Part shown: positions 1-15,294 of the stretch, piece by piece
Numbering within the stretch: the stretch's first letter is position 1
How the letters are laid out: every line of letters starts with the position of its first letter
Assembly: GCA_023489335.1 (NCBI GenBank)
Contig: JAMDCP010000011.1
Span: 199,057-263,056 of the forward strand
Origin: Deltaproteobacteria bacterium
Lineage (GTDB): Bacteria; SZUA-79; Acidulodesulfobacterales; Acidulodesulfobacteraceae
Length of the DNA: 64,000 bases
Direction: 5' to 3'
Made by a program: the position numbers and the translations under genes
The notes under the pieces: generated by a model
Databases searched by the model: none
What the model was told of the DNA's origin: nothing
The model's input: only the letters and a program-made list of their open reading frames with translations

Positions 1-118
1 TTCCGTGTTTTGGAGAATCCGACTTCCTTTCGATAAAAATTTCGGATAATTGACCGTTCTCTATCAGTGCGACGCGCGTTTCGTATTCATCTTTGTTAAT
101 TATAAGTTCTGTAGTCAA
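1..118 (-). CDS. rng: Ribonuclease G/E family, N-terminal fragment
   Basis: The gene runs off the left edge of the window; only about 39 N-terminal residues are visible. The reading from a TTG start at 118 gives TTELIIN followed by ETRVALIENGQLSEIFIER, which matches the conserved opening of RNase G/E proteins just before their S1 domain (T-E-L-x-I-N, then E-T-R-V-A-x-I-E-x-G). An AGAGGG Shine-Dalgarno lies about 5 bases before the TTG, which decides the start. Family members are single-strand-specific endoribonucleases that process 16S and 5S rRNA and start mRNA decay. Whether this is the short RNase G form or a long RNase E form cannot be seen. Confidence 0.8.
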   Translation of the reverse strand, partial: MTTELIINKDEYETRVALIENGQLSEIFIERKSDSPKHG

Positions 119-345
119 TCAAGCCCTCTTATTTAATATTATTCCTTCATTAATTATTTTTGGTTATTTTAACATATTAGACACTATAAAATAAATAATT
201 TAAGATTTTTATATACTTTTATTTTTTTTTAGTTATTAGTTATATGATATAATAGTATAAAAATTAATTGACAAGAATTAATTGCCGATTGATTTATATA
301 TTTTTTAGTTTTATAATAAATAAAAACAGAAGAGGTTAAAATATT
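119..345. other. Divergent AT-rich intergenic region
   Basis: This spacer separates rng (minus) from the plus-strand gene at 346 and must hold promoters for both. Visible signals are a TATAAT at 248-253 without a convincing -35 box and a TTGACA at 268-273 whose best -10 (GATTTA, 17 bases on) is poor. The TTGACA sits inside a loose inverted repeat of AATTAATT arms. I see no gene in it. Confidence 0.4.
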
Positions 346-531
346 ATGGATGAAAATGTGGTGCTTTGTGCGGTATGTGCATGGAGGGGCGTTTGTAATA
401 AAAAATATAATCTATCGGGGGCAGAGATTTTTAACTGTTCCGATTTTAGCAGGGATATTACATTGACAATATCGGGTTTTGAAGATTTATTGTATCTTAT
501 AAACGATAATAAAAATTATAGGGCAAACTGA
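346..531 (+). CDS. Small Cys-rich conserved hypothetical protein
   Basis: A 61-residue protein whose N-terminus holds Cys residues spaced C-x2-C-x6-C (CAVCAWRGVC), with a fourth Cys in NCSDFSRD about 14 residues later. The spacing suggests a small metal site (zinc or iron-sulfur), which is inference. It is preceded by AGAGG at a usable distance and is separated by one base from the SPOR-domain gene, so the two are probably co-transcribed and translationally coupled. I do not recognise a named family. The residues after the Cys motif look like a compact domain rather than a secreted peptide; there is no signal sequence or membrane segment. Confidence 0.55.
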   Translation: MDENVVLCAVCAWRGVCNKKYNLSGAEIFNCSDFSRDITLTISGFEDLLYLINDNKNYRAN

Positions 532-532
532 T

Positions 533-1210
533 TTGAAAAAGGATAAACTTTCAGCGGTTATTGTATTTTTAGTAATCCTGTTTATAGTATTCGCATTAGG
601 ATTATTCGTGGGAAAAAAATTATCTCCTCAAAAATCAAAAGAGGGCGTTATTAAAGAGTCTTCTTTAAAAACGGAGAGCAACCCCCCGGTTTCTCCTTTA
701 AACATAATCCCAAACCAAAAGGCTGAAGAAAAGACCCCTGTTTCAACGGATAATATAAAATTTGCCCCAATATCAAAGTTGGCCTCATTAAAAAATGGCA
801 ATGCCGCCAAAAAGCCTGTCGAAAAGCCAACCCCCCCTCCAGAACCAAAAACTAAGGTTAGAACCAAAATCGTGTATGTTAAAAAACCTATTTACATATA
901 TAAATATATTACAAAAAAACCTGCCGTAAAACAAAAAACCGCCGCTTCTCCTTTTGCTTCCAAAGTATATTACACGATTCAAGTAGCAGCCCTTTCAAAA
1001 TATAACGATGCAAAGAAGTTAGCCGATAAACTTAACTCTATGGGTTTTTTTGCCTATATCGTTCCGATAAGCATTTCCGGAAAAAAAGGAAAGGCTGTTT
1101 ACGAGCAGGTCAGGGTCGGAAAGTTTTCCACAAACGCCGGCGCCAAATCTGTGGAAAATATAATATCGAAGAAATTTAATCTAAAGCCATATATCATAAA
1201 AGTCGATTAA
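533..1210 (+). CDS. SPOR-domain membrane protein
   Basis: A 225-residue protein with a short cytoplasmic tail, one membrane helix (about residues 8-26), a long Pro/Lys-rich linker (about 30-140) and a C-terminal SPOR domain (about 145-225; YTIQVAALSKYNDAKKLADKL, then VRVGKFS). SPOR domains bind denuded peptidoglycan glycan strands at the division septum, so a role in cell division or wall remodelling in the periplasm is likely. The start used is a TTG one base after the upstream stop, with an AGGG about 10 bases before it. The linker is rich in PTPPPEPK-type sequence that would span the periplasm. FtsN-like function is possible but not shown. Confidence 0.8.
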   Translation: MKKDKLSAVIVFLVILFIVFALGLFVGKKLSPQKSKEGVIKESSLKTESNPPVSPLNIIPNQKAEEKTPVSTDNIKFAPISKLASLKNGNAAKKPVEKPTPPPEPKTKVRTKIVYVKKPIYIYKYITKKPAVKQKTAASPFASKVYYTIQVAALSKYNDAKKLADKLNSMGFFAYIVPISISGKKGKAVYEQVRVGKFSTNAGAKSVENIISKKFNLKPYIIKVD

Positions 1211-1224
1211 AGTAACCCGCTATA

Positions 1225-2034
1225 TTAGTAAAGATAAAAATTGGCTAACCTATAAATGAAGGTTCCTATTATGTTTAGCCTTTTTATGGTCCAGTAATGG
1301 GGAAAAGGATTATAACGCGCCGCATCGTATATCGCCTTAACAGCCGCCCTATCCAGCATTTTCTTTCCTGAACTTCTTAAAATTTTCACTCTATAAATAG
1401 ACCCGTTTCTGTTTATAGAAAATTCGATAACGAGCAACCCGGATATTCCCCTTTTTTGCGCCCTCGCAGGATATTCCCAGACATTTTCTATTTTATTTTT
1501 GACATGTAAAAGATACGATGCATACTTTATAGTCGTCGTATTCAGGTTTACGGTTGCCGATTTTACCCCATGGGAAGGATTTTTTATCCCCGATTTTTGA
1601 ACCGGCTGGTTTTGATTAAAAAACTGTTTTCCCATTGGATAAAGACTGCTTAACCTTTGATTTTGTTTTGGCTGAACCTCATGATTATTTGAAAAAATAT
1701 GAGAACTGCTCATAATCCTGCGGTTTTGAGCCTCCGCAGGCGGGGTATTGGAGGCCATAGACGCCGCATAAGAAGGATTTCTATAAGACGAAGGGGCTTT
1801 TAACCTTGTATTTTTAGAAGCGGAATGCGGCTTAATGCTGGCATATTTTGGGTTTTTTATTTTAAATTTTTCTAAGTTTTTGATAAATTTATAAGGTTCG
1901 ACTATGACAGGCTTTGTATATTTATGATATTTTTTGGTTTTCTTGTTGTTGTATCCCAATAAAAACAAGATTAAAGCCGAATGTATAATAAGAGATATAA
2001 TTAATGCATATACTAAGACCTTATTGTTTTTCAT
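1225..2034 (-). CDS. TonB family energy transducer
   Basis: A 269-residue protein with an N-terminal membrane anchor (about residues 8-27), a Pro/Ser/Lys-rich periplasmic stretch, and a C-terminal TonB domain (about 178-262) showing IENVWEYPARAQKRGISG, then LVIEFSINRNGSIYRVKILRSSG. This is the usual TonB_C layout, which passes proton-motive energy from ExbB/ExbD to outer-membrane receptors. No exbB or exbD is present in the window, so its partner complex must be encoded elsewhere. It is convergent with the SPOR gene with only 14 bases between the stops and no clear terminator. Confidence 0.82.
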   Translation of the reverse strand: MKNNKVLVYALIISLIIHSALILFLLGYNNKKTKKYHKYTKPVIVEPYKFIKNLEKFKIKNPKYASIKPHSASKNTRLKAPSSYRNPSYAASMASNTPPAEAQNRRIMSSSHIFSNNHEVQPKQNQRLSSLYPMGKQFFNQNQPVQKSGIKNPSHGVKSATVNLNTTTIKYASYLLHVKNKIENVWEYPARAQKRGISGLLVIEFSINRNGSIYRVKILRSSGKKMLDRAAVKAIYDAARYNPFPHYWTIKRLNIIGTFIYRLANFYLY

Positions 2035-2122
2035 AATATATAAAAGTTAAATAACTAAGACCTTCTCCTTTCTTCCAATTTTAAAAGCTGTTGCCGGTTC
2101 TTTTATTTTAACATTATTTAAA

Positions 2123-2151
2123 TTGATTTAAAATCGTTTTTGGATTAAAAT
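2123..2151 (+). promoter_or_regulatory. Sigma-70-type promoter for purC
   Basis: TTGATT at 2123-2128 and TAAAAT at 2146-2151 are separated by 17 bases. They lie about 50 bases before the purC ATG, which itself has a strong AAGGAGGGGG Shine-Dalgarno. The call is by eye. Confidence 0.5.
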
Positions 2152-2202
2152 ATAGGGCAGATTTGGTTTGTTTTTTAATTTATAAACTTAAGGAGGGGGT
2201 TT

Positions 2203-3027
2203 ATGAAAGTTTCGAAGGAACTTCATATATCTTCGCCCGCAAGTTCTGAAAAGCATGGCTTTTCAGCGGGCGAAGATGCCGAAGGCCGAAAGCGAAGCGG
2301 TCACAGTGTTGCGGAAGAAAAGGGCTTAAAAAAGATTTACGAGGGCAAAGCGAAAATACTTTATGAATATCCCGGGGATGAAAATAAGCTGGTAACTTAT
2401 TTTAAAGATGATGCAACGGCATTTAACGGGCAAAAAAAGGGAGTAATTATGAATAAAGGGGAATATAACAACGCTATATCCGCCTCTTTATTCAAACTTT
2501 TAAAAAAACACGGCATAGAAAGTCATTTCATCGAGAAATTATCCAATAGGGAAATGCTCGTAAATCATTTAAAAATGTTTCCCGTCGAGTTTGTGGTAAG
2601 AAACATCGCCGCAGGGAGCCTTGCAAAAAAGATGGGAGTGGAAGAGGGGGTTAAATTACTTTCCCCCGTGGTTGAATTATATTTTAAAAGCGACGAACTT
2701 GGCGACCCGATGATTAACGAGACTTATGTTAAGGCATTTGATTTAGGAGAGGTCAAGGATGTAGAAGAGGCTAAAATTATTGCTTTAAAGATAAATGAAA
2801 TTCTAAAAGATTTTTTTGATAAAAATGGACTTTTACTTGTGGACTACAAACTGGAATTCGGCACTTTAAACGGAAAAGTTCTTTTGGCAGATGAAATTAC
2901 TCCCGACACAATGAGGTTGTGGGATAAGATAACCCTTGAAAAAGTTGACAAAGATAGGTTCAGAAGAGACCTTGGCGGCGTTGAAGAGGCTTATAAGAGG
3001 GTTTACGATATAACCTCGAAAATATAA
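2203..3027 (+). CDS. purC: Phosphoribosylaminoimidazole-succinocarboxamide synthase
   Basis: SAICAR synthetase joins CAIR and aspartate with ATP in purine synthesis. The catalytic core starts at about residue 43 with KKIYEGKAKILYEYPGDEN, followed by TYFKDDATAFNG, EFVVRNIAAGS, LLVDYKLEFG and LADEITPDTMRLWD, all family hallmarks. The predicted protein is 274 residues because about 40 extra residues precede the usual start. That leader is not optional: the strong AAGGAGGGGG ribosome-binding site and ATG sit at its beginning, and there is no in-frame ATG, GTG or TTG close to the core. The leader is encoded by a long palindromic element (2229-2277 and flank), so the palindrome appears to have been inserted in frame and translated. 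The gene stands alone, transcribed from its own promoter and ending at a bidirectional terminator. Confidence 0.93.
   Translation: MKVSKELHISSPASSEKHGFSAGEDAEGRKRSGHSVAEEKGLKKIYEGKAKILYEYPGDENKLVTYFKDDATAFNGQKKGVIMNKGEYNNAISASLFKLLKKHGIESHFIEKLSNREMLVNHLKMFPVEFVVRNIAAGSLAKKMGVEEGVKLLSPVVELYFKSDELGDPMINETYVKAFDLGEVKDVEEAKIIALKINEILKDFFDKNGLLLVDYKLEFGTLNGKVLLADEITPDTMRLWDKITLEKVDKDRFRRDLGGVEEAYKRVYDITSKI
2229..2277. repeat. Palindromic element inside the purC reading frame
   Basis: The outer arms 2229-2239 (ATCTTCGCCCG) and 2267-2277 are perfect reverse complements, as are the inner arms 2246-2254 (CTGAAAAGC) and 2258-2266, around a three-base ATG loop with a six-base bulge on the left. The total stem is 20 bp. 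It encodes about 16 residues of the purC N-terminal extension. Just after it comes GCCGAAGGC. The outer arm sequence nearly matches the hairpin at 52881-52927, so this is probably a dispersed repeat family. Confidence 0.8.
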
Positions 3028-3081
3028 AGAATAAGATTGCGGACAGCTTAAAATAAAAATAAATTAAGGAATGCGGTATAG

Positions 3082-3126
3082 AAAATCGGCTATGAGAGGA
3101 GATATAACTCCACCATAGCCGATTTT
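3082..3126. terminator. Bidirectional terminator between purC and peroxiredoxin
   Basis: Arms AAAATCGGCTATG (3082-3094) and CATAGCCGATTTT (3114-3126) form a perfect 13-bp stem, with a further GGAG/CTCC pairing in the loop. The A and T ends give a T-run on either strand, which suits the convergent genes purC and the peroxiredoxin. Confidence 0.85.
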
Positions 3127-3144
3127 ATTAAAGGGCAATAAAAA

Positions 3145-3765
3145 TTATTTTAATGCCTCATAGACTTTGCCGACGACAGCCGGACCTGGTTTAATCGTTT
3201 TTCCGCCTTTATGCCATTTTGCCGGACAAACCTCATCGGGATGGGTTGAAACATAGATGTTTGCTTCAACCTTTCTGACAAGCTCGTCTGCATTTCTGCC
3301 GACATTGTAAAAATTGACTTCGGATGCAACCAGCGTGCCTTCGGGATTGATTATAAATGTGCCTCTTAAAGCAAGTCCCGAATCCTCGTCATAAACGCCG
3401 AATATTCTGGATACCTTTCCTGTGGGGTCTGCTCCCATTGCAAATTTTACCTTTTCCAATAATTTTTCATCCCTTTGCCATGCCATATGGACGAAATGGG
3501 TATCGGTGCTGATGGAAATTATTTGCGCGCCCATCTTTTCGAGTTCTTCCTGTTTTCCTGCATAGTCCTGCAGTTCGGTCGGGCAAACGAAAGTGTAATC
3601 GGCGGGATAAAATACGAGAACAGTCCATTTTTTGTTTTTCTTAGCCTCTTCTATGCTAAATTTTCCAAATCCGCCTGTTTTAGGATCGAAAGTATTAATT
3701 TCCCCAAATGACGGAACGGGTTTTCCGATAACTGCAATTTCATACTCTTCACAATATTCGTTCAT
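3145..3765 (-). CDS. Typical 2-Cys peroxiredoxin (AhpC/Prx1 class)
   Basis: A 206-residue thiol peroxidase that reduces hydrogen peroxide and organic peroxides. The peroxidatic Cys is in FYPADYTFVCPTEL (about residue 60), and the resolving Cys is in HPDEVCPAKWHKG (about residue 180), the arrangement of typical 2-Cys enzymes. The catalytic arginine region (ALRGTFIINPEG) is present. The ATG at 3765 is preceded by TAGGAGG. The gene is monocistronic, with its own near-consensus promoter upstream and a terminator downstream. No AhpF-type reductase is adjacent, so the electron donor is probably thioredoxin or a similar protein encoded elsewhere. It fits oxygen defence in an anaerobe. Confidence 0.92.
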   Translation of the reverse strand: MNEYCEEYEIAVIGKPVPSFGEINTFDPKTGGFGKFSIEEAKKNKKWTVLVFYPADYTFVCPTELQDYAGKQEELEKMGAQIISISTDTHFVHMAWQRDEKLLEKVKFAMGADPTGKVSRIFGVYDEDSGLALRGTFIINPEGTLVASEVNFYNVGRNADELVRKVEANIYVSTHPDEVCPAKWHKGGKTIKPGPAVVGKVYEALK

Positions 3766-3832
3766 AAAAAACCTCCTACGAATTTAATTTGTTAATTTTG
3801 TTATACCACCCACTTAATAATAATTACTGTTT

Positions 3833-3861
3833 AGTATATTTTATTATTTTATACAAGTCAA
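3833..3861 (-). promoter_or_regulatory. Promoter for the peroxiredoxin gene
   Basis: On the minus strand, TTGACT (3856-3861) and TATACT (3833-3838) are separated by exactly 17 bases. This is close to the sigma-70 consensus and lies about 70 bases upstream of the ATG. Confidence 0.7.
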
Positions 3862-3953
3862 GATGTTAATTAAAATTTTTAATTAAAATTAATTTAAGCC
3901 TTGAGAAGATTGGAGAAATCAAAGGAAATCGCAAAGAGTATTTAAGAATATTT

Positions 3954-3982
3954 TTGATTTTTTCTTAATATAAATGTACAAT
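3954..3982 (+). promoter_or_regulatory. Promoter for ugd-manC
   Basis: TTGATT (3954-3959) and TACAAT (3977-3982) have a 17-base spacer. The implied leader is about 135 bases. The rest of the 360-base divergent gap (3766-4125) is AT-rich with no gene visible. Confidence 0.55.
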
Positions 3983-4125
3983 TAAACTAATTTTATTTAT
4001 TATTTATATATATATCTATATCTTATTTTTCAAAGAAATCAACCCTTATATCGCATAATATAAAATAAACGGCATTTAACGATTTTTCTGCCTGCACCGT
4101 TAAAAGAAGGAGGATTATTTCATAG

Positions 4126-5430
4126 ATGAATATTTCGATTATAGGAACAGGATATGTCGGTCTTGTTACCGGCGTTTGTTTGGCCGACTCAGGAAACACC
4201 GTATATTGCGTCGATAACGATGCAAACAAAGTATCTTCGTTAAACAACGGCATAATACCCATCTACGAGCCGGGGCTTAAAGAACTGGTCGATAAAAATG
4301 TAAAAAATGAAAGGCTTATTTTTACGGAAGATTTGGATTTTGCCGTTAAAAAAACGGATGTTATTTTTATAGCCGTGGGAACCCCGCCCCAGGAAAACGG
4401 GGAGGCCGATTTGTCTAATGTTTTTGGGGTAGCCGAAAGCATCGCAAATTCTATCAACGGTTATAAGGCGGTGGTCGTAAAAAGCACCGTTCCTGTCGGA
4501 ACCTGCAAAAAGATAGATACTATAATAAGGAAAAAAACGGACGATTTTAGCATAGTTTCAAATCCGGAATTTTTAAAAGAGGGCGCCGCGATAGAAGATT
4601 TTCAGAGGCCCGATAGGATAATTATCGGGATAAATAGCGGCAAACGGTCGTCAAAAGCAAAAGAGATTATGGATGAGATTTACGAGCCGTTTGTCAGAAC
4701 GGGGGCGCCTATATATTTTATGGATACTAATTCTTCCGAACTTACAAAATATGCTGCCAATGCAATGCTTGCATTGAGAATAACATTTATGAACGAGCTT
4801 GCCAACATGTGTTCCCTGGCAGGGGCAAATGTGGATAATATAAGAATAGGAATAGGTTCCGACAAAAGAATCGGAAAGTCTTTTCTATTTCCGGGCATTG
4901 GGTATGGCGGAAGCTGTTTCCCTAAAGATGTTAAGGCCCTTTACCAAACCGCAAAAGCAAACGGATATGATTTTAAGCTGCTAAAGGCGGTCGATGAGGT
5001 TAATTATTATCAAAAAGAAGCCTTATTAAGCTATATTTTAAAATATTTCAAAGGGGATATTTCCGGCAAGACTTTTGCCTTATGGGGTTTATCGTTTAAG
5101 CCAAAAACCGACGATATAAGGGAGGCGCCGTCTTTGGTGATTATTTCGAAACTACTTTCATACGGCGCAAAGATTAAGGCTTACGATCCAATCGCGATGG
5201 ATAACGCAAAAAAAGTTTTTCCAGAAATAGAATATGCAAGCGATATGTACGAAACGCTGGAAGATTCCTGCGGGCTTATTATTGCAACGGAATGGAACGA
5301 TTTCAGGGTGCCCGATTTCAAAAAAATTAAAGATAATTTAAAAGACAATGTTATATTTGATGGAAGAAACATTTATGACCCCAAAAAGATGTCCGAAATA
5401 GGCATAAATTATTATTCGATCGGGAGGTAG
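4126..5430 (+). CDS. ugd: UDP-glucose 6-dehydrogenase
   Basis: A 434-residue enzyme that oxidises UDP-glucose twice to UDP-glucuronate using NAD, in the cytoplasm. The N-terminal Rossmann fold opens with IGTGYVGLVTG (residues 5-15), the central region contains SNPEFLKEGAAI, and the catalytic Cys is in PGIGYGGSCFPKD (about residue 265). The C-terminal UDP-binding domain has LWGLSFKPKTDDIREAPS. An AAGGAGG lies about 12 bases before the ATG. It sits six bases before manC, so the two form an operon for sugar-nucleotide precursors of surface polysaccharide. The exact substrate (UDP-glucose against a related UDP-hexose) cannot be settled from motifs alone. Confidence 0.92.
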   Translation: MNISIIGTGYVGLVTGVCLADSGNTVYCVDNDANKVSSLNNGIIPIYEPGLKELVDKNVKNERLIFTEDLDFAVKKTDVIFIAVGTPPQENGEADLSNVFGVAESIANSINGYKAVVVKSTVPVGTCKKIDTIIRKKTDDFSIVSNPEFLKEGAAIEDFQRPDRIIIGINSGKRSSKAKEIMDEIYEPFVRTGAPIYFMDTNSSELTKYAANAMLALRITFMNELANMCSLAGANVDNIRIGIGSDKRIGKSFLFPGIGYGGSCFPKDVKALYQTAKANGYDFKLLKAVDEVNYYQKEALLSYILKYFKGDISGKTFALWGLSFKPKTDDIREAPSLVIISKLLSYGAKIKAYDPIAMDNAKKVFPEIEYASDMYETLEDSCGLIIATEWNDFRVPDFKKIKDNLKDNVIFDGRNIYDPKKMSEIGINYYSIGR

Positions 5431-5436
5431 GCAGTT

Positions 5437-6927
5437 ATGACCAATGTTATTTTATGCGGGGGCAGCGGTACAAGGTTATGGCCGATTTCAAGAAAATTTT
5501 TTCCAAAGCAATTTTATAAGCTATTAGACAATATGTCTTTATTTCAAATGACGGTTTTGCGAAACAGGGACTTTTGCGGCGATTTTTTAATTGTTACGAA
5601 TAAAAACCAGTATTTTATTGCGCTTGACCAGCTTGAAGAAATCGGGGTAAAGAATTACAGGTTTATTCTTGAGCCTGCAGGTAGAAATACCGCTGCGGCA
5701 ATTGCCTTATCCTGTTTCGATGCCGTTAAAAATCAAAATAAAAATGATATACTTTTTATTACCCCGTCCGACCATTTAATAAAAAACCAAAATTCTTATA
5801 AAAGGGCTGTCGAAATTGCTCAAAAGTCGGCTAAAGACGGTAATATAGTTATGTTTGGCATAAAGCCGTCGTCACCGGAAACAGGATACGGATATATCGA
5901 GGTTATCTTAAATAAAAGTGAAAGCAATTTAATTAACGATAAACATGTACCGGATAAAAACATACTGTCGAATCTAAACACTTTAGACGATATAAATTTA
6001 CATGAAGATGTTTTTTCTATCGGTTTTTTTAAGGAGAAGCCCGATAAAGAAACGGCTTGCCGCTACCTTTCGAGCGGTAATTTTTATTGGAATAGCGGGA
6101 TGTTTATGTTTACGCCGGAAGTATTACTGAAAGAGCTTGGGGCAATATGTCCCGGTATTTATGAGTCTTCGAATATAGCTTATGAAAATGCCAAAAAAGA
6201 CGGTTCAATGCTAAGAATTTTGGAAAACGATATGCTTAATATCGAAGAGAATTCCATAGATTTTGCGCTTTTGGAAAAAACGCCCATGGTAAAAGCTATA
6301 CTTGCCGACATCGAATGGTCCGATTTAGGCAGCTTTGATTCGCTTTACGATGAGTTCAAAAAAGATGAAAACAATAATGCCGTATTAAAAGATGCTTTAA
6401 ATATTAATTCAAAGAATAATCTTATAATGTCGAGCAGCAGAATGGTTGCGACAATAGACATAGAGGATCTGATAGTTATCGATACGGATGACGCGCTTCT
6501 AATCGCAAAAAGGGGGTCATCACAAAATGTTAAAAAGGTTGTGGAGGAATTAAAGAAAAGTAATTCGGAACTCCATGCGCAACATATGACGGTGCATAGG
6601 CCATGGGGATCTTACACGGTTTTACTTGAATCAAGCCTTTATAAAATAAAAAAGATTGTTGTCAAACCCGGGGCCAAGTTATCGCTTCAAAAGCATTTTC
6701 ACAGGTCGGAACACTGGATTGTAACAAGCGGAACGGCCTTGATTACGGTTGACGATAAAACCGTACTTCTTAAAGCCAACGAATCGACATATATTCCCAT
6801 AGGTTCCATTCACAGGCTTGAAAACCCAGGTCTTATCCCCCTTGTTTTAATAGAGGCCCAGGTTGGGGAGTATCTCAAGGAAGACGATATAGTAAGATTA
6901 GAGGATGATTATCATAGGATGGATTAA
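5437..6927 (+). CDS. manC: Mannose-1-phosphate guanylyltransferase / mannose-6-phosphate isomerase
   Basis: A 496-residue bifunctional protein of the ManC/AlgA type. The N-terminal nucleotidyltransferase starts with ILCGGSGTRLWPISRKFFPKQF and has FILEPAGRNTAAAIAL; it makes GDP-mannose from mannose-1-phosphate and GTP. The C-terminal cupin (about 385-496) has RPWGSYTVL, KPGAKLSLQKHFHRSEHW and IPIGSIHRLENPG, the type II phosphomannose isomerase signature. It follows ugd by six bases and has a GGGAGG ribosome-binding site overlapping the ugd stop region. The pair suggests exopolysaccharide or O-antigen supply, although no glycosyltransferases follow. Confidence 0.92.
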   Translation: MTNVILCGGSGTRLWPISRKFFPKQFYKLLDNMSLFQMTVLRNRDFCGDFLIVTNKNQYFIALDQLEEIGVKNYRFILEPAGRNTAAAIALSCFDAVKNQNKNDILFITPSDHLIKNQNSYKRAVEIAQKSAKDGNIVMFGIKPSSPETGYGYIEVILNKSESNLINDKHVPDKNILSNLNTLDDINLHEDVFSIGFFKEKPDKETACRYLSSGNFYWNSGMFMFTPEVLLKELGAICPGIYESSNIAYENAKKDGSMLRILENDMLNIEENSIDFALLEKTPMVKAILADIEWSDLGSFDSLYDEFKKDENNNAVLKDALNINSKNNLIMSSSRMVATIDIEDLIVIDTDDALLIAKRGSSQNVKKVVEELKKSNSELHAQHMTVHRPWGSYTVLLESSLYKIKKIVVKPGAKLSLQKHFHRSEHWIVTSGTALITVDDKTVLLKANESTYIPIGSIHRLENPGLIPLVLIEAQVGEYLKEDDIVRLEDDYHRMD

Positions 6928-6992
6928 TGCCTTTTAATCTCTTCTTTGGCCAAAACAGATTTAGCCGATAAAAGTATTAGCAATAGATATAT

Positions 6993-7021
6993 TTGACATC
7001 ATCGTATAAATTATATACACT
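6993..7021 (+). promoter_or_regulatory. Promoter of the abiE-like operon
   Basis: TTGACA (6993-6998), a 17-base spacer and TACACT (7016-7021). The predicted transcription start (about 7028) falls after the first possible in-frame start (TTG 7024), so the mRNA may begin at or within a few bases of the true start codon. Confidence 0.6.
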
Positions 7022-7035
7022 TATTGACAAATGTA

Positions 7036-7662
7036 GTGAAATTATACGGTAATAATGTGATACAGAAAAAATCACAGGAACTTATAGACTTTTTCGAGAG
7101 CCGTAACGGGATAGTCAGGTTTTCCGATATTCTAAATGTCGGATTTCACCCCGATTCGTTAAATGCTCTTGTGAAAGAAGATAAGATAGAGAAGATTGCC
7201 AGGGGACTTTACAGGCTGACCGGTTATAATATCGGTTCATATCCCGACCTTATTATTGCATCCCTTCAGACCCCCAAGGGAGTTGTTTGCCTTATCTCAG
7301 CCCTTTCTTTTCACGAGGCAACCGTCGAAATTCCAAAGTACGTTGATATAGCCATCCCCAGAGGGACGCATTCCTATAAAATCAAATATCCTCCGGTGAG
7401 ATTTTACCGTTTTGATCCCAAAGCATGGGAGGCAGGGATTGAAGAGCATAAAATAAAGGATTATAAAATAAAAATTTACGGTCTTGCAAAAACTATCGCC
7501 GATTGTTTTAAATTTCGCAATAAAATCGGTATTAACATTGCGCGTGAAGCTCTTAAAACAGCCGTTGCCGAAAAGAATATAAAACCAAAAGAAATAATGC
7601 ACTATGCCAAAATTTGCCGTGTCGATAATATAATAAAACCGATATTGGAGACCCTGTTGTGA
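7036..7662 (+). CDS. AbiEi-family antitoxin
   Basis: About 208 residues with an N-terminal winged-helix segment (ELIDFFESRNGIVRFSDIL, then LVKEDKIEKIARGLYRL) and the AbiEi C-terminal region containing VCLISALSFHEATVEIPKYV, PVRFYRF and YGLAKTIADCFKFRNKIG. AbiEi proteins are transcriptional repressors and antitoxins of type IV systems. The longest reading starts at TTG 7024, but the promoter places transcription start at about 7028, so GTG 7036 is preferred; GTG 7057 is also possible. No Shine-Dalgarno is visible before any of them. The stop overlaps the next start as GTGA, tying it to the toxin gene. Confidence 0.82.
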   Translation: MKLYGNNVIQKKSQELIDFFESRNGIVRFSDILNVGFHPDSLNALVKEDKIEKIARGLYRLTGYNIGSYPDLIIASLQTPKGVVCLISALSFHEATVEIPKYVDIAIPRGTHSYKIKYPPVRFYRFDPKAWEAGIEEHKIKDYKIKIYGLAKTIADCFKFRNKIGINIAREALKTAVAEKNIKPKEIMHYAKICRVDNIIKPILETLL

Positions 7663-8576
7663 AGAACGATATCAAAAATTTACAAGCCTCTATAAAGGGC
7701 AGGCTTCAAAATAAAGCAAAAGAAGCCGGTCGTTCATTTTCCGAAGTCCTCCAGTATTACGGGATGGAAAGATTTCTTTACAGATTCAGCCGTTCAAAAT
7801 ATGCAGATAAATTTATTTTAAAGGGCGCGCTGATGTTTGCTGTATGGCAAATTTCGGAACGCAGGACGACACTTGATATAGATTTCTTAGCACATCACGA
7901 TAACCTGATAGCAGCTATCGAGAAAGTTATAGAGGATGTTTGTGACGAACCAGTAACGCCGGACGGGGTTGTGTTTGATTCAAAGACTATAAAAGGATAT
8001 AAGATAACGGAAGAGGCGGAATATGAAGGCGTGCGCGTAAAATTTACTGGATTTCTGGAACATTCACGGATACCTATGCAAATCGACATGGGATTTGGTG
8101 ATATTATTTATCCAAAACCGGAGATCATCAATTACCCAGTTATTTTAGATTTCCCTGAGCCGCATCTAAAGGGATATCCGGCAGAAAGCGTTGTTAGCGA
8201 AAAATTTGAAGCAATGGTCAAACTTGGGTCTCTTAACAGCCGGATGAAGGATTTTTATGATATATGGCTAATGTTGCGCCAATTTGATTTTAACGGAGCG
8301 CCTCTTACCGAAGCATTAAAAAGAACCTTTGAACATCGTAAAACTCCCTTGCCGCAGGAAAAACCTTTATTCGCCGAAGAGATTTATGATGAAAAACCAG
8401 ACCGCCAGACTCTCTGGAAGGCTTTTTTGAAAAAGGGGGACATTAAACATGTACCTGAAAAGTTGTCTGTTGCGGCCAGCGAAATAGAAGATTTCCTTAT
8501 TAAGCCACTTGATGCAATTAAAAAGGGGTATGCATTTAATCAAGTATGGAAAGTTCAGGGGCAATGGGAATTATAA
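7659..8576 (+). CDS. AbiEii/AbiGii nucleotidyltransferase toxin
   Basis: A 305-residue member of the AbiEii toxin family, a polymerase-beta-like nucleotidyltransferase. The active-site region reads FILKGALMFAVW, then TTLDIDFLA, with the D-x-D metal pair about 13 residues after the KG motif. A second conserved block is AESVVSEKFEAMVKLG, then NSRMKDFYDIWLM, which is typical of the family C-terminal half. Family toxins transfer nucleotides, in studied cases to tRNA, and arrest growth, giving abortive infection against phage. It starts at GTG overlapping the antitoxin stop by four bases. The length is normal for the family and the frame is intact, so the pair looks functional. Confidence 0.87.
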   Translation: MKNDIKNLQASIKGRLQNKAKEAGRSFSEVLQYYGMERFLYRFSRSKYADKFILKGALMFAVWQISERRTTLDIDFLAHHDNLIAAIEKVIEDVCDEPVTPDGVVFDSKTIKGYKITEEAEYEGVRVKFTGFLEHSRIPMQIDMGFGDIIYPKPEIINYPVILDFPEPHLKGYPAESVVSEKFEAMVKLGSLNSRMKDFYDIWLMLRQFDFNGAPLTEALKRTFEHRKTPLPQEKPLFAEEIYDEKPDRQTLWKAFLKKGDIKHVPEKLSVAASEIEDFLIKPLDAIKKGYAFNQVWKVQGQWEL

Positions 8577-8857
8577 TTTTTTATTTGAAATAAAAAAATA
8601 AATTGGACACCTTTCTGCGCATATTACATATTATATAAACAATATAAATAGATTAATTGCTGATTTTAGTGTTCGATTAAAATGGGATACGCAGCTTTTT
8701 GTTGATTTCAAATATTGAAAGATTAAATTTACACTATTCAAAAAAACGCATTTGAGGATTTTTTCCAAAAAAGTTTTAAAATTTTGTCCCGAGCTTATTA
8801 CTGGTGTTTTATTACTCCTTTTGGCAAAATCTGATATTTAGTGAAAAAATAAATTAT

Positions 8858-9730
8858 ATGATTATCAATACGGAAAAAGAATTTCTTGAATTTGTAAAAC
8901 AGCAAGAAAATAACTTTTCTTCGTCTTCGGTTTCAGGCGAATATGCTCAAATATTTGAAGCTGTGGCCCCTTACACGCTGATAAACGCGGAAATTAGCAC
9001 CAAAACATTTGCCAGTGGTGTTAGAAATTTGATAGCCGCAAGATTATTATATAAGAAAAATATAAGATCATTGGCTATCTATCATTTACAACAAGCTTTA
9101 GAGCTTTTAATTAAATGGAGAGCTTATTTTTTATTAGATAAGGAAAATGTCAGGAATTCCAGTCATAATATGAAAAGCTTAATTGGAAAGGTTTTTCAAA
9201 AGGAAGGCGAAATTAGAAATGATATTCTTAATAAAATAAATCCCCCATATAAATCAGAAAATAAATACAAATACGACGATTTTTTTAATATTATTTTTGA
9301 TAATCAATTTGAACAAATTAAGATTGCTAAGTATTCTAAGGAGGAGATTCTAAATAAAAGAGAAAAGGTAATCAAAAAAATACAAAAAGAAGTTCGTGGT
9401 TTACATAAAATAGTTCATGATTTGCATAAAGATTCTAATTTTATAAACCTAAAGAATGTTACTGAAGAAATTTTCCAAAAAAGGGGGAAAAATGATGTAT
9501 GTGAATTCGTGGATCCATTATTTACAACAGTTTTTAAGCTTTCATATGTGCCAACTTTTTACGGCTATATTACGTATCCGCATCAAAACTACACGAGATA
9601 TTCTGACAGAGAGATAAAGCCGATAGATTATGAAAATGGTTTTTTAGGTATTTCGCAACCTGAGGTTTTTAATAAAATTGTTGATGATATATATAGAGTT
9701 TTAATAGAATTTGTTAAAAATTTTCTTTAA
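8858..9730 (+). CDS. HEPN-domain protein, possible toxin or abortive-infection protein
   Basis: About 290 residues. The N-terminal third contains a HEPN-like helical bundle: ASGVRNLIAARLLYKKNIRSL, then AIYHLQQALELLIKWRAYFLL and a following SSHNMKSLIGK, the arrangement seen where HEPN proteins keep H-x-x-Q-A-x-E and a later His. Many HEPN proteins are RNases or partners of nucleotidyltransferases. The rest (about 110-290) is a Lys/Glu-rich helical region and an unrecognised C-terminal part. The longest reading starts at GTG 8804, but ATG 8858 is more natural. Codon use is AT-richer than the housekeeping genes. It is monocistronic, with a probable terminator right after it. The function is inferred only from the domain. 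Confidence 0.6.
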   Translation: MIINTEKEFLEFVKQQENNFSSSSVSGEYAQIFEAVAPYTLINAEISTKTFASGVRNLIAARLLYKKNIRSLAIYHLQQALELLIKWRAYFLLDKENVRNSSHNMKSLIGKVFQKEGEIRNDILNKINPPYKSENKYKYDDFFNIIFDNQFEQIKIAKYSKEEILNKREKVIKKIQKEVRGLHKIVHDLHKDSNFINLKNVTEEIFQKRGKNDVCEFVDPLFTTVFKLSYVPTFYGYITYPHQNYTRYSDREIKPIDYENGFLGISQPEVFNKIVDDIYRVLIEFVKNFL

Positions 9731-9765
9731 TTCAATATAGATGCCAATGAATATCGGCTAAATAA

Positions 9766-9817
9766 ATGTTGACTAAGTTTTATATTATACTGCACCCATA
9801 GTCAAGACATTTTTTTT
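9766..9817 (+). terminator. Probable terminator of the HEPN gene
   Basis: ATGTTGACTA (9766-9775) pairs with TAGTCAAGACAT (9799-9810) with one bulged G and a 23-base loop, followed by eight T bases. The long loop lowers confidence. Confidence 0.45.
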
Positions 9818-9854
9818 AAGTTTTCTTACTTTAAATTTTAACAGATTTCCGGGT

Positions 9855-10289
9855 TCATGGAATAAGAAACTTAAAAGTTCTGTTCGAATTTATGGGTTCA
9901 TTATACTCGGATGCCGATAAAATTTTAATTCCTTCGTATTCTTTCAGCGGCAATATGTGATGTTTATCTCCTGAAATTATATATCCGGCTTTTCCTTCAA
10001 GGGCACATTCGAGTATTCTATTATCGGGTTCATGTGATTTTATTGCGTTAACGGTTTTTGAAGGGGTAATTAAAATGGCATATTCTCTTATGCTTTCAAT
10101 TACATCGGATATAAGAAAATCGTCCCAGCCAAATTTTCTTTTTAATATTCCCGCTATTTCGGCTAAAATTTCTCCTGAAATTAAAGCCTGGATTTTTCCC
10201 GTTCTCGCAAGATTAACAATCTCTTCGGGTTTTTTGCCGAACAATATTGCGGATAGGTAAATATTGGTATCAAGAACAACTTTATGCAT
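9855..10289 (-). CDS. PIN-domain toxin, PIN family TA component
   Basis: A 144-residue PIN-domain protein of the COG1569-like toxin group. It opens with KVVLDTNIYLSAILFGKKPEEI (first acidic residue D at about 6), has an inner Glu in SGEILAEIAGIL, and the later acidic cluster EPDNRILECALEG then GYIISGDKHHILPL, which complete the metal site of PIN ribonucleases. The reading frame is intact. It lies downstream of and overlaps the RHH antitoxin gene by eight bases, the standard toxin-second order. The likely role is RNA cleavage held in check by the antitoxin. The target RNA is unknown. Confidence 0.83.
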   Translation of the reverse strand: MHKVVLDTNIYLSAILFGKKPEEIVNLARTGKIQALISGEILAEIAGILKRKFGWDDFLISDVIESIREYAILITPSKTVNAIKSHEPDNRILECALEGKAGYIISGDKHHILPLKEYEGIKILSASEYNEPINSNRTFKFLIP

Positions 10290-10530
10290 TGTTCTTTTCT
10301 TTCCAATATTCTTCCCTGATTTTTTCTACCCCGTTTTCATCCTTAATGCCGAGTTTCTTAGCCGTTTCGTTGCCGATTTTTCTTATATTCTGCCATCTTT
10401 TTTCTTCGGATATATAAATATTTAATGCTTCCTTAAGCACCCGGCTTCTTGAAACGCCTTTAATTTTTGCCATTTTAACCACTTCCGCATATAACGGTTC
10501 AGGCAATGACATATTGATTATTTTAGACAT
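10282..10530 (-). CDS. Ribbon-helix-helix antitoxin
   Basis: An 82-residue protein whose N-terminal half is a ribbon-helix-helix/CopG-type DNA-binding fold (MSKIINMSLPEPLYAEVVK, then GVSRSRVLKEALNIYI). The C-terminal half, with EKRWQNIRKIG and VEKIREEYWKE, would wrap the PIN toxin. A strong AGGAGG ribosome-binding site is immediately upstream, and a perfect 12-bp inverted repeat overlaps the presumed transcription start, fitting autoregulation by the antitoxin-toxin complex. Confidence 0.82.
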   Translation of the reverse strand: MSKIINMSLPEPLYAEVVKMAKIKGVSRSRVLKEALNIYISEEKRWQNIRKIGNETAKKLGIKDENGVEKIREEYWKEKNNA

Positions 10531-10539
10531 GCCGCCTCC

Positions 10540-10567
10540 TTTTATTAAAGAAATCTCTTTAATAAAA
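10540..10567 (-). promoter_or_regulatory. Operator of the PIN/RHH operon, abutting a -10 box
   Basis: TTTTATTAAAGA (10540-10551) and TCTTTAATAAAA (10556-10567) are a perfect 12-bp inverted repeat with a four-base gap. On the minus strand a TATAAT (10567-10572) directly abuts it, and the repeat lies between that -10 and the AGGAGG of the antitoxin gene, an ideal position for repressor binding. The -35 is weak. Confidence 0.65.
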
Positions 10568-10648
10568 TTATAGCATATAATATAAAAAAATTAAATTCAT
10601 TTTTATACATTTTTGCATATTATTATCAAGAGTGGAATTGAGAAAAAA

Positions 10649-10798
10649 TTAAAGGTGCCAGCCGGGTTTCATTTCCTTTCTTGCCGCCGAACCGAATATG
10701 CCTAAGTCTAAAAGCCCTAAATCTTTTTCGTGTTTATTTTTATAGGTTTTGAGCGTATTTATTATTTAATTTTGATCTAATTTATTTTCCGGCAGCAT
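10649..10798 (-). pseudogene. Remnant of an MNT-type nucleotidyltransferase antitoxin
   Basis: In the frame from an ATG at 10798 the translation is about ten residues, an in-frame TAA, then IINTLKTYKNKHEKD, LGLLDLGIFGSAARKEMKPG and a stop at 10649. The LGIFGSAAR-x-E-x-K-P-G block is the first motif of minimal nucleotidyltransferase (MNT) domains. Everything after that motif, including the catalytic Asp pair, is missing. The early stop and truncation make it a decayed gene. The remaining gap (10799-10934) is AT-rich, with no gene seen. Confidence 0.65.
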
Positions 10799-10934
10799 AA
10801 TTTCCTCTGATTTTTTATTAATTATAGCCTATATTTTTATTATAATTTTCAAAGAAAAAGTTATATGATTAATGTATAATATATTATAATAATAAAGGAA
10901 TTATAAATTAAAAACCTGATAAATTTATTATTGT

Positions 10935-11090
10935 ATGGCCGAAAGTAGCAAAAAACTTATTTATATAGATGTTTGCGCTTTATGCAGGCCGTTTGACGAC
11001 CAATCGTTATTAAGGATAAGGCTTGAAACGGAGACCGTCAAATGGTGCGGCAACCCGTTGAGTTTTTGCGAAATGGAGGATCTAAAATGA
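10935..11090 (+). pseudogene. Internally deleted PIN-domain toxin
   Basis: A 51-residue frame beginning with an ATG. Residues about 8-36 (LIYIDVCALCRPFDDQS, then LLRIRLETETV) match the start of a PIN-toxin group with a Y-x-D-V-C-x-L-x-R-P-F-D-D-Q opening. The tail NPLSFCEMEDLK resembles the end of such proteins, where an N-P-x-x-F/Y motif is followed by a few residues. About 90 central residues carrying the other metal ligands are absent, so the gene seems to have suffered an in-frame internal deletion and would be inactive. It overlaps the following antitoxin gene as ATGA, showing that the operon end stayed intact. Confidence 0.6.
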
Positions 11091-11284
11091 AAGCTGCAAA
11101 ATACATGGAAGAAGATATGCTGATTCAAAAATCTATCGAAGCCCTTGTTGAAAAAATGGGCCCCGTTGAGGCCGTCAGGTTTTTAAACATACCGAAGAAA
11201 AAAAGAATTGAAAGCGTTAAAAGACATTCGGAGTGGCAAAAGAGCCTTGATAAAAAACAGTTTTTTGACGAGGTTTTCAAATAA
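11087..11284 (+). CDS. Antitoxin-like small protein, orphaned
   Basis: A 65-residue acidic/basic protein with EEDMLIQKSIEALVEKMG, then PVEAVRFLNIPKKK. The block M-G-P-V-E-A-x-R-F-L is shared with small proteins found next to PIN toxins of the group represented by the deleted gene just upstream. The ATG overlaps the upstream stop (ATGA), and GGAGG precedes it. A longer reading from 11042 runs through the upstream gene and is less likely. It has probably lost its toxin partner. Confidence 0.6.
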   Translation: MKAAKYMEEDMLIQKSIEALVEKMGPVEAVRFLNIPKKKRIESVKRHSEWQKSLDKKQFFDEVFK

Positions 11285-11492
11285 AAGTTAGTGCGGCTTT
11301 TCCATCCCGAATTTTTTAGCAAGAAACTAAATTACTGCTTTGCAATCCCTACCGTTCTCGCCGCCTTTATAATAAACTATGGATAGAGGTTGTCACGGGA
11401 TTGAATTAACCGCTTTTCTAAAAAGGGAAAGATATTTATCCATAACTTGCTATCTTTTAACGGCGTAAAAAAGCCCTAATGAAAAAAATGAT

Positions 11493-12854
11493 ATGAATAA
11501 TCAAGAATTTACCGACCTAATTGCCAGACGAAAGAAATTAGCGGATAATTTCAGAGAGAATCAAGACGATATCAGATTTTTTGAGATTCTAGCAAAATTA
11601 TACAGTGATCCGTCACATTTCATTTACGAAATTTTACAAAATGCAGAAGATGCAAAAGCAACATGGGTAAGTTTTGAACTTAAATCCAATGGATTAATAG
11701 TTTATCATGATGGCCGGGATTTTGATTTTACAGATATTAAAAAAATAACGGGGGTTGGAAGCTCAAATAAAAAAGATGATTTAACTCAAATTGGAAAATT
11801 TGGCATAGGTTTTAAGTCCGTTTTTGCAATTACCAGAACACCCTATATTTTTTCGGGCGGCTATAGCATTGTTATTAAAGATTATATTGTTCCAGAGCCA
11901 GTTGATTCTGTAGAAAAGATTATAAAAACTTGTATAGAGCTACCCTTTAACAGCGATTTGAATAAGCCAAACCAAGTTTATAAATTAACTTATAATAGAT
12001 TAAGCAATCTTGGCGCAGAAACGCTGCTTTTTTTAAAAAGTATCAAGGAAGTCAGATGGAAAACAGCCGATAATGAAGGATATTATTCTAAAAATTCTGA
12101 AATTATAAATGAAATAGCCAAAAAAGTCATATTGAATTCGGATAAGGATAGTCCACTTGATTATCTTGTCATTTCAGATTCCGTCAAAATAGGCAAGCAA
12201 TATTCAAGCATTGAAGTGGCATATAAAATAGGAACAGATAAAAACAATAAAAAAATAATAACGCCACACCAATCCAAGTTATTCGTATTTTTTCCTACAG
12301 AAAAAGAAACTTTTTTAGATTTCATCATCCAGGGCCATTACAAAACAACTCCTAATAGAGAAAACATTCCCATAAAAGACAGTCAAAATTTGATAATACT
12401 TAAAGCAACCGGGGATTTAGTAGGAAAAAGTATCCCGATTGTGAAAAACACTGGATTACTTGATTTCAATTTCTTTGATATCTTGCCTGTTAACAGTGAA
12501 GCGGATAATGGTCCAATTTATGAGGAGGTTTACAAAAATGTTAAGCGCAAGCTGTTATCAGGTGAAAAATTATTGCCAACATTAAATGGGGAATACACAG
12601 ATTCTAATAGTGCCATAATAGCCGATTGCGAAGAAATAACGAGACTTTTAGATACAAATGACCTTAAAGAAATGTACGGTAAAAAAGACTGGCTTGATTT
12701 AAATATCACAAGAAAAGAAAAGTTAAGGAATTATTTTTTAAATGATTTAAAAATTCCGGAAATTAATTTAGATAATTTTTTGCCAAAACTAAGCAAGGAG
12801 TTTTTACAAAGAAAGTCTGACGAATGGCTTATTAATTTATATAAGTATTTTTAA
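11493..12854 (+). CDS. Sacsin/HSP90-like ATPase, N-terminal part of a frameshifted gene
   Basis: The first 453 residues of a roughly 1135-residue protein. A GHKL (HSP90/MutL/sacsin-type) ATP-binding domain is clear: FIYEILQNAEDAKATWV (N box Asn/Asp), VYHDGRDFDFTDI (D-x-G) and IGKFGIGFKSVF (G-x-G lid), about residues 45-115. A later IQGHYKTTPNRENIP is the conserved arm that contacts ATP in sacsin-like proteins. The frame ends at TAA 12852-12854, and the same protein continues in the -1 frame without a gap. Such ATPases joined to DUF3883 occur in bacterial defence loci. Whether the break is programmed, a real mutation or a sequencing error in the T5-A5 run is undecided. Confidence 0.8.
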   Translation: MNNQEFTDLIARRKKLADNFRENQDDIRFFEILAKLYSDPSHFIYEILQNAEDAKATWVSFELKSNGLIVYHDGRDFDFTDIKKITGVGSSNKKDDLTQIGKFGIGFKSVFAITRTPYIFSGGYSIVIKDYIVPEPVDSVEKIIKTCIELPFNSDLNKPNQVYKLTYNRLSNLGAETLLFLKSIKEVRWKTADNEGYYSKNSEIINEIAKKVILNSDKDSPLDYLVISDSVKIGKQYSSIEVAYKIGTDKNNKKIITPHQSKLFVFFPTEKETFLDFIIQGHYKTTPNRENIPIKDSQNLIILKATGDLVGKSIPIVKNTGLLDFNFFDILPVNSEADNGPIYEEVYKNVKRKLLSGEKLLPTLNGEYTDSNSAIIADCEEITRLLDTNDLKEMYGKKDWLDLNITRKEKLRNYFLNDLKIPEINLDNFLPKLSKEFLQRKSDEWLINLYKYF

Positions 12855-14899
12855 AAAGGAAAGAGCTTAAAGATTATTATTATAATGAATGGCTCTTAAA
12901 AGATATACCCATAATCAGGCTTGAAAATGGTGATAATATTGCGCCATTTGATAAAGATGGAAAACTACAAGTTTTTTTGAATTCGTCTGGTAATTTCAAT
13001 GGTTTATCCATAAAAGATGTTTTCTTGCAAAATGATGATTCCTTGAAATTTTTAAGAGATTTGGGTCTAAGGAAGCCGGATGAGGTTGATTTATGGAACA
13101 ATGAAAATAATAAAATTTCTGATAGAAATAATATTATAAAGTTTGAAGAATTCCTTGCAAAATATGAAAAACTTCGTAAAAAAGCCGTTAATAAAAAGGG
13201 TGAAAGTGATAATTTGCATTATGATAATTATAAAGATTATATAAACCGATTATCTGATACCCCGTTTATACCTTCTATCAATAATATCACAAAGGAACAT
13301 GTTCTTAAAAAACCCACCGAGGTTTATATAAGGAATGAAGATCTTAATTTATATTTTAATAATTTTGCGGTTTTTTTTGTTTCTGAAGAATTATTTGGAA
13401 AATTTGGGAGCGATCGATTAGGACTGTTTTTAGAGGAGATCGGAACAAGAGATCTACCAAGAAGAATTAGAGTAGAAGGAAATCTATCTGAAAAGGCTAA
13501 AAAAGAACTCAGAGAACAAGAGGATTATTATGATTATGCCAAAGATGAGATTACCCATGATTATAAATACGAAGGCCTGGAAAACTTTTTAAAAAATATA
13601 ACACAGGAAGGATCATTATTGTTATGGAGATTGATACTCAAAACGGTTGAAGAATTAGGCATTGCTCAAGAGCGAAAAGATAATGAATCAGAACATTACA
13701 ATGACCAGGAATATATATATGACTTGGATAAATATAGTTTTAGAGGAAGAATCACAAAAAAATATGATCTTCAAGAAGAATATGAAGTTGGGTTAGGGTC
13801 TATTGACGAGTCTTATATGGACAATTTTTTCCACGGATTTTATTTATGGTTGCCTAAAAACAAAAGGACTTGGTACAGTTATAATTTGTTTAAGGCGGAT
13901 TTTGTTAGAGTACTTGAAAAAGAACCTTGGCTTGTGGATAAAAATAATGATTTTAAAGAACCATCTGAAGTTTCTTTAGCTGACCTTATAGATGACTATA
14001 AAAATTGTGCAGAAGGTAAGTATTGGATATTGGATTTAATAGCTGAAAACCTTGGATTTAAAAAAGGAATAAATAGTTCAATTGGTTTAAATTATTATAA
14101 GGAGTCCGCAAGAAATTTAAAATCTTTTGAAAATATTAAACAATTATATGCGAACAAAAAGGGTTTATCGCCTAATGATGTAAGTAATGAAAGAATAGAA
14201 GAGTTTATAAAAGAGGCTTTAGAGAGAGATTTGAAAGAAAATATGCCACAAAAAATAAAAAATAGCAGATGGGCGCCGGATTGCAAGCCTGAAGAATCTA
14301 ATTATGATTTCTTAGAATTGGAACCAGAAAAGATTATCATAAGAGATCTAAATGGGCAAGAAAATAAAGAAAACGGATCAAACAAAAAAGTAAAATTTGA
14401 AAATGAAGAAGAATATGAAGAAAAATCAGAACTGCTTGGTTATACTGATAAAAAGAATATTGGTAGGTGGGGGGAGGAATATATTTATTATTTCTTTAAA
14501 AACCATAGGTTTAAAAATGAAGGTATTATTAAGGATGGAAAAGGTTTTAAAATATCCGGAAATAAAAATGATGGTATTGAAGTTATATGGTTAAATAAAA
14601 ACCCTGATAATGTGGGCATAGGATATGATTTTATAATAAAGAAAAATAATAATGATATAGAATTTATTGAAGTAAAATCAAAGATTCAGGGACCGGAACA
14701 CAAAACTGTTATTAAAATTAGCGGTATCCAGTGGGGGTTTGCAAGGGAATTATACGATAATGGTGAAGGAGATAAATATTTTATATATATAGTTTACAAT
14801 GTTGGTAAACTAAACCCATACATAAAAATATTGAAAAATCCGATTAAATTATGGATTAATGGCAGAATACACGCTGATCCAATAAATATAAAGGTTTAA
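12851..14899 (+). CDS. DUF3883-containing C-terminal part of the frameshifted ATPase
   Basis: In the -1 frame from 12851 the translation reads on smoothly (LKRKELKDYYYNEWLLKDIP and so on) for 682 residues; the first ATG is at 12977. Most is an all-helical, Lys/Glu/Asn-rich region. The last about 130 residues form a DUF3883-like domain: IGRWGEEYIYYFFKN, then GIGYDFIIKK and IEFIEVKSK, with a D...E-x-K pattern like PD-(D/E)xK nucleases, and IKISGIQWGFARELY after it. A nucleic-acid cleaving role is plausible. At the junction T-TTT-TAA the P-site Phe tRNA can re-pair perfectly one base back, giving TTA AAA next, and AGGAAAG follows. The last base of the stop overlaps an ATG that opens only a 25-codon frame. 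Confidence 0.75.
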   Translation, partial: LKRKELKDYYYNEWLLKDIPIIRLENGDNIAPFDKDGKLQVFLNSSGNFNGLSIKDVFLQNDDSLKFLRDLGLRKPDEVDLWNNENNKISDRNNIIKFEEFLAKYEKLRKKAVNKKGESDNLHYDNYKDYINRLSDTPFIPSINNITKEHVLKKPTEVYIRNEDLNLYFNNFAVFFVSEELFGKFGSDRLGLFLEEIGTRDLPRRIRVEGNLSEKAKKELREQEDYYDYAKDEITHDYKYEGLENFLKNITQEGSLLLWRLILKTVEELGIAQERKDNESEHYNDQEYIYDLDKYSFRGRITKKYDLQEEYEVGLGSIDESYMDNFFHGFYLWLPKNKRTWYSYNLFKADFVRVLEKEPWLVDKNNDFKEPSEVSLADLIDDYKNCAEGKYWILDLIAENLGFKKGINSSIGLNYYKESARNLKSFENIKQLYANKKGLSPNDVSNERIEEFIKEALERDLKENMPQKIKNSRWAPDCKPEESNYDFLELEPEKIIIRDLNGQENKENGSNKKVKFENEEEYEEKSELLGYTDKKNIGRWGEEYIYYFFKNHRFKNEGIIKDGKGFKISGNKNDGIEVIWLNKNPDNVGIGYDFIIKKNNNDIEFIEVKSKIQGPEHKTVIKISGIQWGFARELYDNGEGDKYFIYIVYNVGKLNPYIKILKNPIKLWINGRIHADPINIKV

Positions 14900-15217
14900 T
14901 GATGGTAAGACCTGCTACGAGATATAATGGGAGCAGAAATTATTGTGAACACGTAAAACTTGTCTCTATGAAATAAATATAATAAGAATGCCGCCTTCTC
15001 CGGTCAGTTTTTTGTCTTCGGTCCTACAGAAATATTGATAACGGTTGTATTAATGCTAAATGTCGTCCAACTGATTTTACCCCGTTTGTGTAGCATAAAA
15101 AGTGTAGTGTCAATTGTAGTATAGTAATGTAATATAGTAAATTTTACTAAATTTTTAGGATGATGTCTTAAAGGAGATAGGATATTGCTTTAAATCGCTT
15201 ATCTACTGGGTTTTAAG
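14900..15217. other. Intergenic region between the ATPase gene and tRNA-fMet
   Basis: About 318 bases without a supported gene. It contains a 25-codon frame opening at 14899-14901 (TAATG with the ATPase stop) that I do not recognise, an odd-length palindrome TAGTAAATTTTACTA near 15145, and an AAAGGAGA without a following frame. It lies directly 3' of the tRNA, where islands often integrate, but I find no integrase and no repeated tRNA end. Confidence 0.4.

Positions 15218-15294
<77 letters not shown>

Follow-up and report, generated by a model that had tools for sequence, protein, structure and literature searches.

A frame break in a TmtA-like putative defence gene of a deltaproteobacterium is probably a recent mutation

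The defence proteins that most resemble the one described here are represented by PADLOC profile PDLC03972 (TmtA), which we take to be the Tiamat defence system and which spans 1302 positions from an N-terminal GHKL/Hsp90-like ATPase to its C-terminal end. Within the window, the 64,000-nucleotide stretch of deltaproteobacterial contig JAMDCP010000011.1 that we analyzed, a gene at positions 11493–14899 of the forward strand matched both ends of this profile with its two halves. The gene differed from TmtA in that its frame was broken and in that the protein obtained by joining the two halves, at 1135 residues, was shorter than the profile. Because the frame is interrupted at 12845–12854, we refer to the gene as a broken relative of TmtA/Tiamat and not as a working member. 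The intact family is already known from TmtA/Tiamat profiles, and nothing sets this gene apart as a new kind of system. Among the papers listed by literature searches on Tiamat, DUF3883, sacsin, and frameshifting, none describes a frameshifted TmtA gene in its title or the opening part of its abstract.

A further point of comparison is provided by two-gene operons of a DrmD-like SNF2 helicase gene and a TmtA-like gene, in which the second gene is homologous to the window gene; by contrast, the window gene stands without a helicase neighbour. Of 71 homologue loci that were full-length, 30 had a gene encoding 900 or more residues directly upstream, often with an overlap of a few bases (e.g., L087, L094, L131, L122). 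Among five such upstream genes tested, four encoded SNF2 helicases, two of them with an N-terminal HEPN_Swt1 domain, and the fifth (L057) encoded an AAA_11/12 protein; DrmD was the best match for the three of the four helicases that were scanned with PADLOC. The helicase and TmtA-like pair, as a recurrent operon, may deserve its own study. Two other TmtA-like loci had unusual surroundings: a 164-residue fragment in a Nitrospirae MAG (L126:8001–8570) ran straight into CRISPR-like direct repeats, and in a Ferroglobus MAG (L055:1622–2764) a DruA (Druantia) gene preceded the TmtA-like gene by 5 bp.

The first reading frame of the window gene (ORF1) extended from an ATG at 11493 to a TAA at 12852–12854 and encoded 453 residues. 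The −1 frame was preceded by a stop at 12842–12844, opened at 12845, and continued for 684 residues to a stop ending at 14899 (ORF2). Only positions 12845–12851 were shared by the two frames, and the break is therefore confined to this short stretch of the 12845–12854 zone, which contains a T5 run (12848–12852). ORF2 is clearly coding: no in-frame stop was observed, compared with a mean of 66.6 and a minimum of 44 in 2000 mononucleotide shuffles and with 48 and 117 stops in the other two frames over the same region, and G+C by codon position was coding-like in each half (0.38/0.28/0.27 and 0.40/0.24/0.23). Translation of the halves as two separate proteins, with the second made alone by re-initiation, is extremely improbable. 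A GGAAAG-like stretch after the ORF1 stop would suit this arrangement, but ORF2 had no start near its beginning and no ATG or GTG was close by; the first eight candidates were all TTG, the earliest of these (12977) would cost about 40 residues, and none of 103 homologue rows was split at the corresponding position.

Profile matches assigned a domain to each half. ORF1 (11493–12854) matched Pfam SACS (E 4.4e-21), the NCBIfam sacsin N-terminal ATP-binding domain (7.4e-27), and TmtA profile positions 32–481 (1.1e-58); it comprises a predicted sacsin/Hsp90-type (GHKL) ATPase and a transducer-like part and ends in the helical region that follows. ORF2 (12845–14899) contains the rest of this middle region and a C-terminal DUF3883/NOV_C domain with a D...ExK-like motif, and it matched Pfam NOV_C (DUF3883; E 3.1e-10, residues 575–656 of 684) and TmtA profile positions 1111–1302 (2.6e-29). 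Residues of the conserved ATPase motifs (E, QNAxD, and IGxFGxGFK) and of the GYD..EVK segment of the DUF3883 end agreed with the family consensus. By these sequence criteria the halves are one gene, with a sacsin/Hsp90-type ATPase in front and DUF3883/NOV_C at the end, as the preliminary description had proposed; its further proposal, that a single −1 shift would restore one ATPase-helical-DUF3883 protein of about 1135 residues, was borne out by the frames, by the domain matches, and by the joined protein's retention of the residue spacing of its relatives. The ATPase domain also matched sacsin SR1 by sequence (PDB 5v44–5v47; E 1e-9 to 2.5e-9), and a sequence search of solved structures with ORF2 gave no match at E up to 0.1. 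Unlike sacsin, the window protein is prokaryotic, has a single ATPase module, and carries DUF3883 in place of sacsin's DnaJ/HEPN end; DUF3883 has been described as a novel REase domain (PMC3710099), and the C-terminal end of the window protein is accordingly a predicted nuclease-like domain. The gene is probably an anti-phage gene.

A structure model of a full-length relative, L052 (mean pLDDT 84), suggested where the break would fall in the folded protein. The model resembled Hsp90 overall and also matched sacsin SR1 by fold; in comparisons with the ATPase-transducer parts of GyrB, MutL, and Hsp90, which covered mainly the ATPase part of L052, the best match had Z 16.5 and rmsd 4.7 over 276 aligned residues. 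Residue 453 of the window protein, placed by aligned conserved Trp and Tyr residues, corresponds approximately to L052 residue 452, which is the end of a helix (442–452) in a confidently folded stretch and lies outside the low-confidence linker (approximately 826–889) that precedes the DUF3883 domain. The 453-residue product would thus end within a folded region and not at an evident linker.

Homologues were collected from 386 genomes, relative and domain-wide, of which 18 gave a match, from plasmids and phages, and from collections of genome contigs (80 loci kept) and viral contigs (15 loci). A single-protein query found no relative in the genome and viral contigs, but an alignment query did; the nearest full-length relatives found had 34–39% identity along some 1130 residues. 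In 103 of 103 homologue rows covering the site, a count that includes the near-duplicates L009/L094, L058/L132, and L140/L141, the equivalent of residue 453 was located inside one open frame, and no row was broken at the site. These rows leave out six of the 95 contig-derived loci (five with frames shorter than 500 residues and one without a match) as well as 11 of 25 earlier rows, one of which duplicated L052. Two additional phylum searches with the alignment query gave matches in 4 of 77 and 6 of 68 genomes, and all of the better matches were free of internal stops; one weak partial match had two. The preliminary description had held that homologues with an undisrupted frame and no slip site would mark an assembly error or a simple mutation, and this is largely what the 103 rows display. 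It had also suggested looking for the same T run in homologues: TTTTT did occur within 24 nt of the site in 11 of 103 rows, mostly in Phe/Leu codons, but always in an unbroken frame.

Three homologues (L060, L072, and L090) were frame-broken elsewhere, at model positions of approximately 513–535, and we count these isolated breaks of similar kind as favouring mutation in the window gene; a break in L105 coincided with an assembly gap (NN) and was excluded from the count. Recurrent splitting of the family by a shared mechanism was considered and rejected, because the three breaks differ in direction, have no common motif that we could see, and fall 60–80 positions after the window site, near a conserved FLxxLGLxEPD stretch. 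Their clustering within about 22 model positions may reflect chance or a fragile spot.

At the site itself, U_UUU stands directly before UAA, and the preliminary description had proposed a programmed −1 frameshift here, in which, with the stop codon in the A site, tRNA-Phe would slip back by one base and pair again, and the gene would yield an ATPase in a short form and an ATPase-nuclease in a long one. Such re-pairing is possible, and the stop directly after the slip codon and the homologue spacing of the joined reading fit the proposal; a programmed site is very unlikely nonetheless, given its absence from all 103 homologue rows and the following features of the sequence. First, the known bacterial SD elements that stimulate −1 shifting lie upstream of the slip site, and the 30 nt leading to the slip codon contained no SD-like core. 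The AGGAAAG that had been noted just after the stop is present (12857–12863) but on the wrong side, and to our knowledge a downstream element of this kind is not a known −1 stimulator. Second, a possible RNA hairpin at 12861–12897 (forward strand; −10.4 kcal/mol) starts 9 nt past the slip codon. Programming has no better evidence in its favour, yet this evidence is weak: the fold was equalled by 12 of 200 shuffles and at 82 of 3276 overlapping positions in the gene, or at 2 of 163 positions spaced 20 nt apart. Third, U_UU.U, although a genuine −1 motif, is a weak one. In E. coli, where it works with a pseudoknot, it is one of the more effective Z_ZZ.N tetramers, and it occurs in IS elements, but Z_ZZ.N motifs without a stimulator barely exceed background (0.147% versus 0.112%; PMC4066793). 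The window gene shares with the IS3-family transposases, which use programmed −1 frameshifting, a U_UU.U tetramer and a possible hairpin after it, and differs from them in that the site is unconserved, no transposon was found beside the gene, and no SD lies upstream. Finally, TTTT or AAAA is present in 26% of the 10-nt windows of the gene, which has 16 T runs and 41 A runs of five or more; with runs so abundant in an AT-rich gene, it is no surprise that a randomly placed break should fall on a slippery one. Even so, the T5, the adjacent stop, and the hairpin 9 nt downstream are parts expected of a −1 site, and we count them against mutation. The lineage-specific form of the proposal, in which a hairpin-aided shift at U_UUU_UAA would give mostly the ATPase-only form with few ATPase-nuclease molecules and would damp a costly effector, seems at least as unlikely.

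Assembly or sequencing error ranks next after mutation as an explanation. If the break were an error, the true gene would be undisrupted and the 1135-residue protein would be made normally; the openness and good conservation of the remainder of the gene agree with this idea, and singleton frame breaks validated by BLASTp are expected to be mostly sequencing errors (PMC3711429). To gauge the quality of the assembly, scans for split genes covered 441,663 bases (24.5% of the organism's own genome). A codon-score scan missed the window gene because of its atypical codon use, and a looser scan was added, which returned 18 pairs including the window gene. Of four other pairs that were read completely, three appear to be adjacent genes with ordinary starts; the fourth, a Uma2-family gene on the reverse strand (L041:3024–3645), was truly split, its frame being broken at an A8G5 run and both halves matching PF05685. 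At least one further frame-split gene with both halves confirmed by Pfam is thus present in the sample, and the resulting total of two is a minimum, with 5 of the 18 pairs examined individually. The sampled assembly nevertheless looks clean. That both split genes are accessory points to relaxed selection more than to random error; that both also sit at homopolymers, as sequencing errors would, we count against mutation. Within the window gene, 10 T runs and 14 A runs of six or more leave the frame open, and a miscall of the T5 alone would be odd. On balance, an error is possible but rather unlikely.

The setting of the gene indicates that it is accessory. Positions 1–6928 and 15218 onward were 81–92% identical to two sister genomes, G002 and G003, in which the same flanks are separated by just ~85 bp and ~750 bp; the near-adjacency of these flanks identifies 6929–15217 as a variable cassette that is absent from both. 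This 8.3-kb segment lies between a manC-like gene and a tRNA-Met gene (15218–15294, reverse strand), which forms its right-hand edge, and it carries AbiEi, AbiEii, HEPN, and PIN genes together with the window gene, a defence setting that agrees with the defence effector supposed in the preliminary description. A search for direct repeats at the cassette ends found none. The window gene was carried by 1 of 30 genomes of the phylum, and its third-position G+C was 0.23–0.27, compared with 0.34–0.45 in five sampled neighbours; with such AT-rich third positions and so narrow a distribution, the gene looks imported and dispensable.

Taken with the homologue and split-gene results, these observations make a recent, real frameshift mutation in an accessory, solo TmtA-like defence gene the probable cause of the break. 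That the break is mutation and not noise is supported by the finding of just one other confirmed split gene in 441,663 bases and by the longer A/T runs that leave the frame open. Recency is supported by the lack of a stop in the 684 codons of ORF2, by its coding-like composition, and by the agreement of ATPase- and EVK-motif residues with the family consensus, and dispensability by the 1 of 30 phylum genomes that carry the gene and by the lack of the cassette in G002 and G003. The authors of GeneTack likewise took singleton frame breaks with database homologues to be errors or indels (PMC3711429). A costly effector might also be kept mostly off by reversible phase variation, or by a break that leaky slippage rescues at a low level, but this appears more improbable than programming; compensatory low-level frameshifting is known elsewhere (PMC5009743) and a T run is present, though a short one, but T5 is much shorter than the poly-A/T stretch of seven or more nucleotides tabulated in PMC3711429, and the longer runs of the gene are not located at the break.

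Under the mutational explanation, the ancestral state would have been one solo TmtA-like (Tiamat-type) defence gene, which would have arrived with the 8.3-kb cassette at the tRNA-Met site. The gene would then have been broken recently by an indel that shifted the frame at a single position within or next to the short T run. In intact members of the family, an Hsp90-like clamp driven by ATP is presumably coupled to the nuclease-like end. From the present sequence, ribosomes would yield a product of 453 residues that contains the ATPase and transducer-like part but lacks the C-terminal nuclease-like domain, the long form would be made at most through rare leaky slippage, and defence activity would probably have been lost.

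If the break were programmed, the dose of an immune effector would here be set by ribosomal frameshifting, which would be unusual. If, as seems probable, the gene is broken, it provides another example of the rapid loss or switch-off of accessory defence genes and a caution against taking frame breaks in single genomes for recoding.
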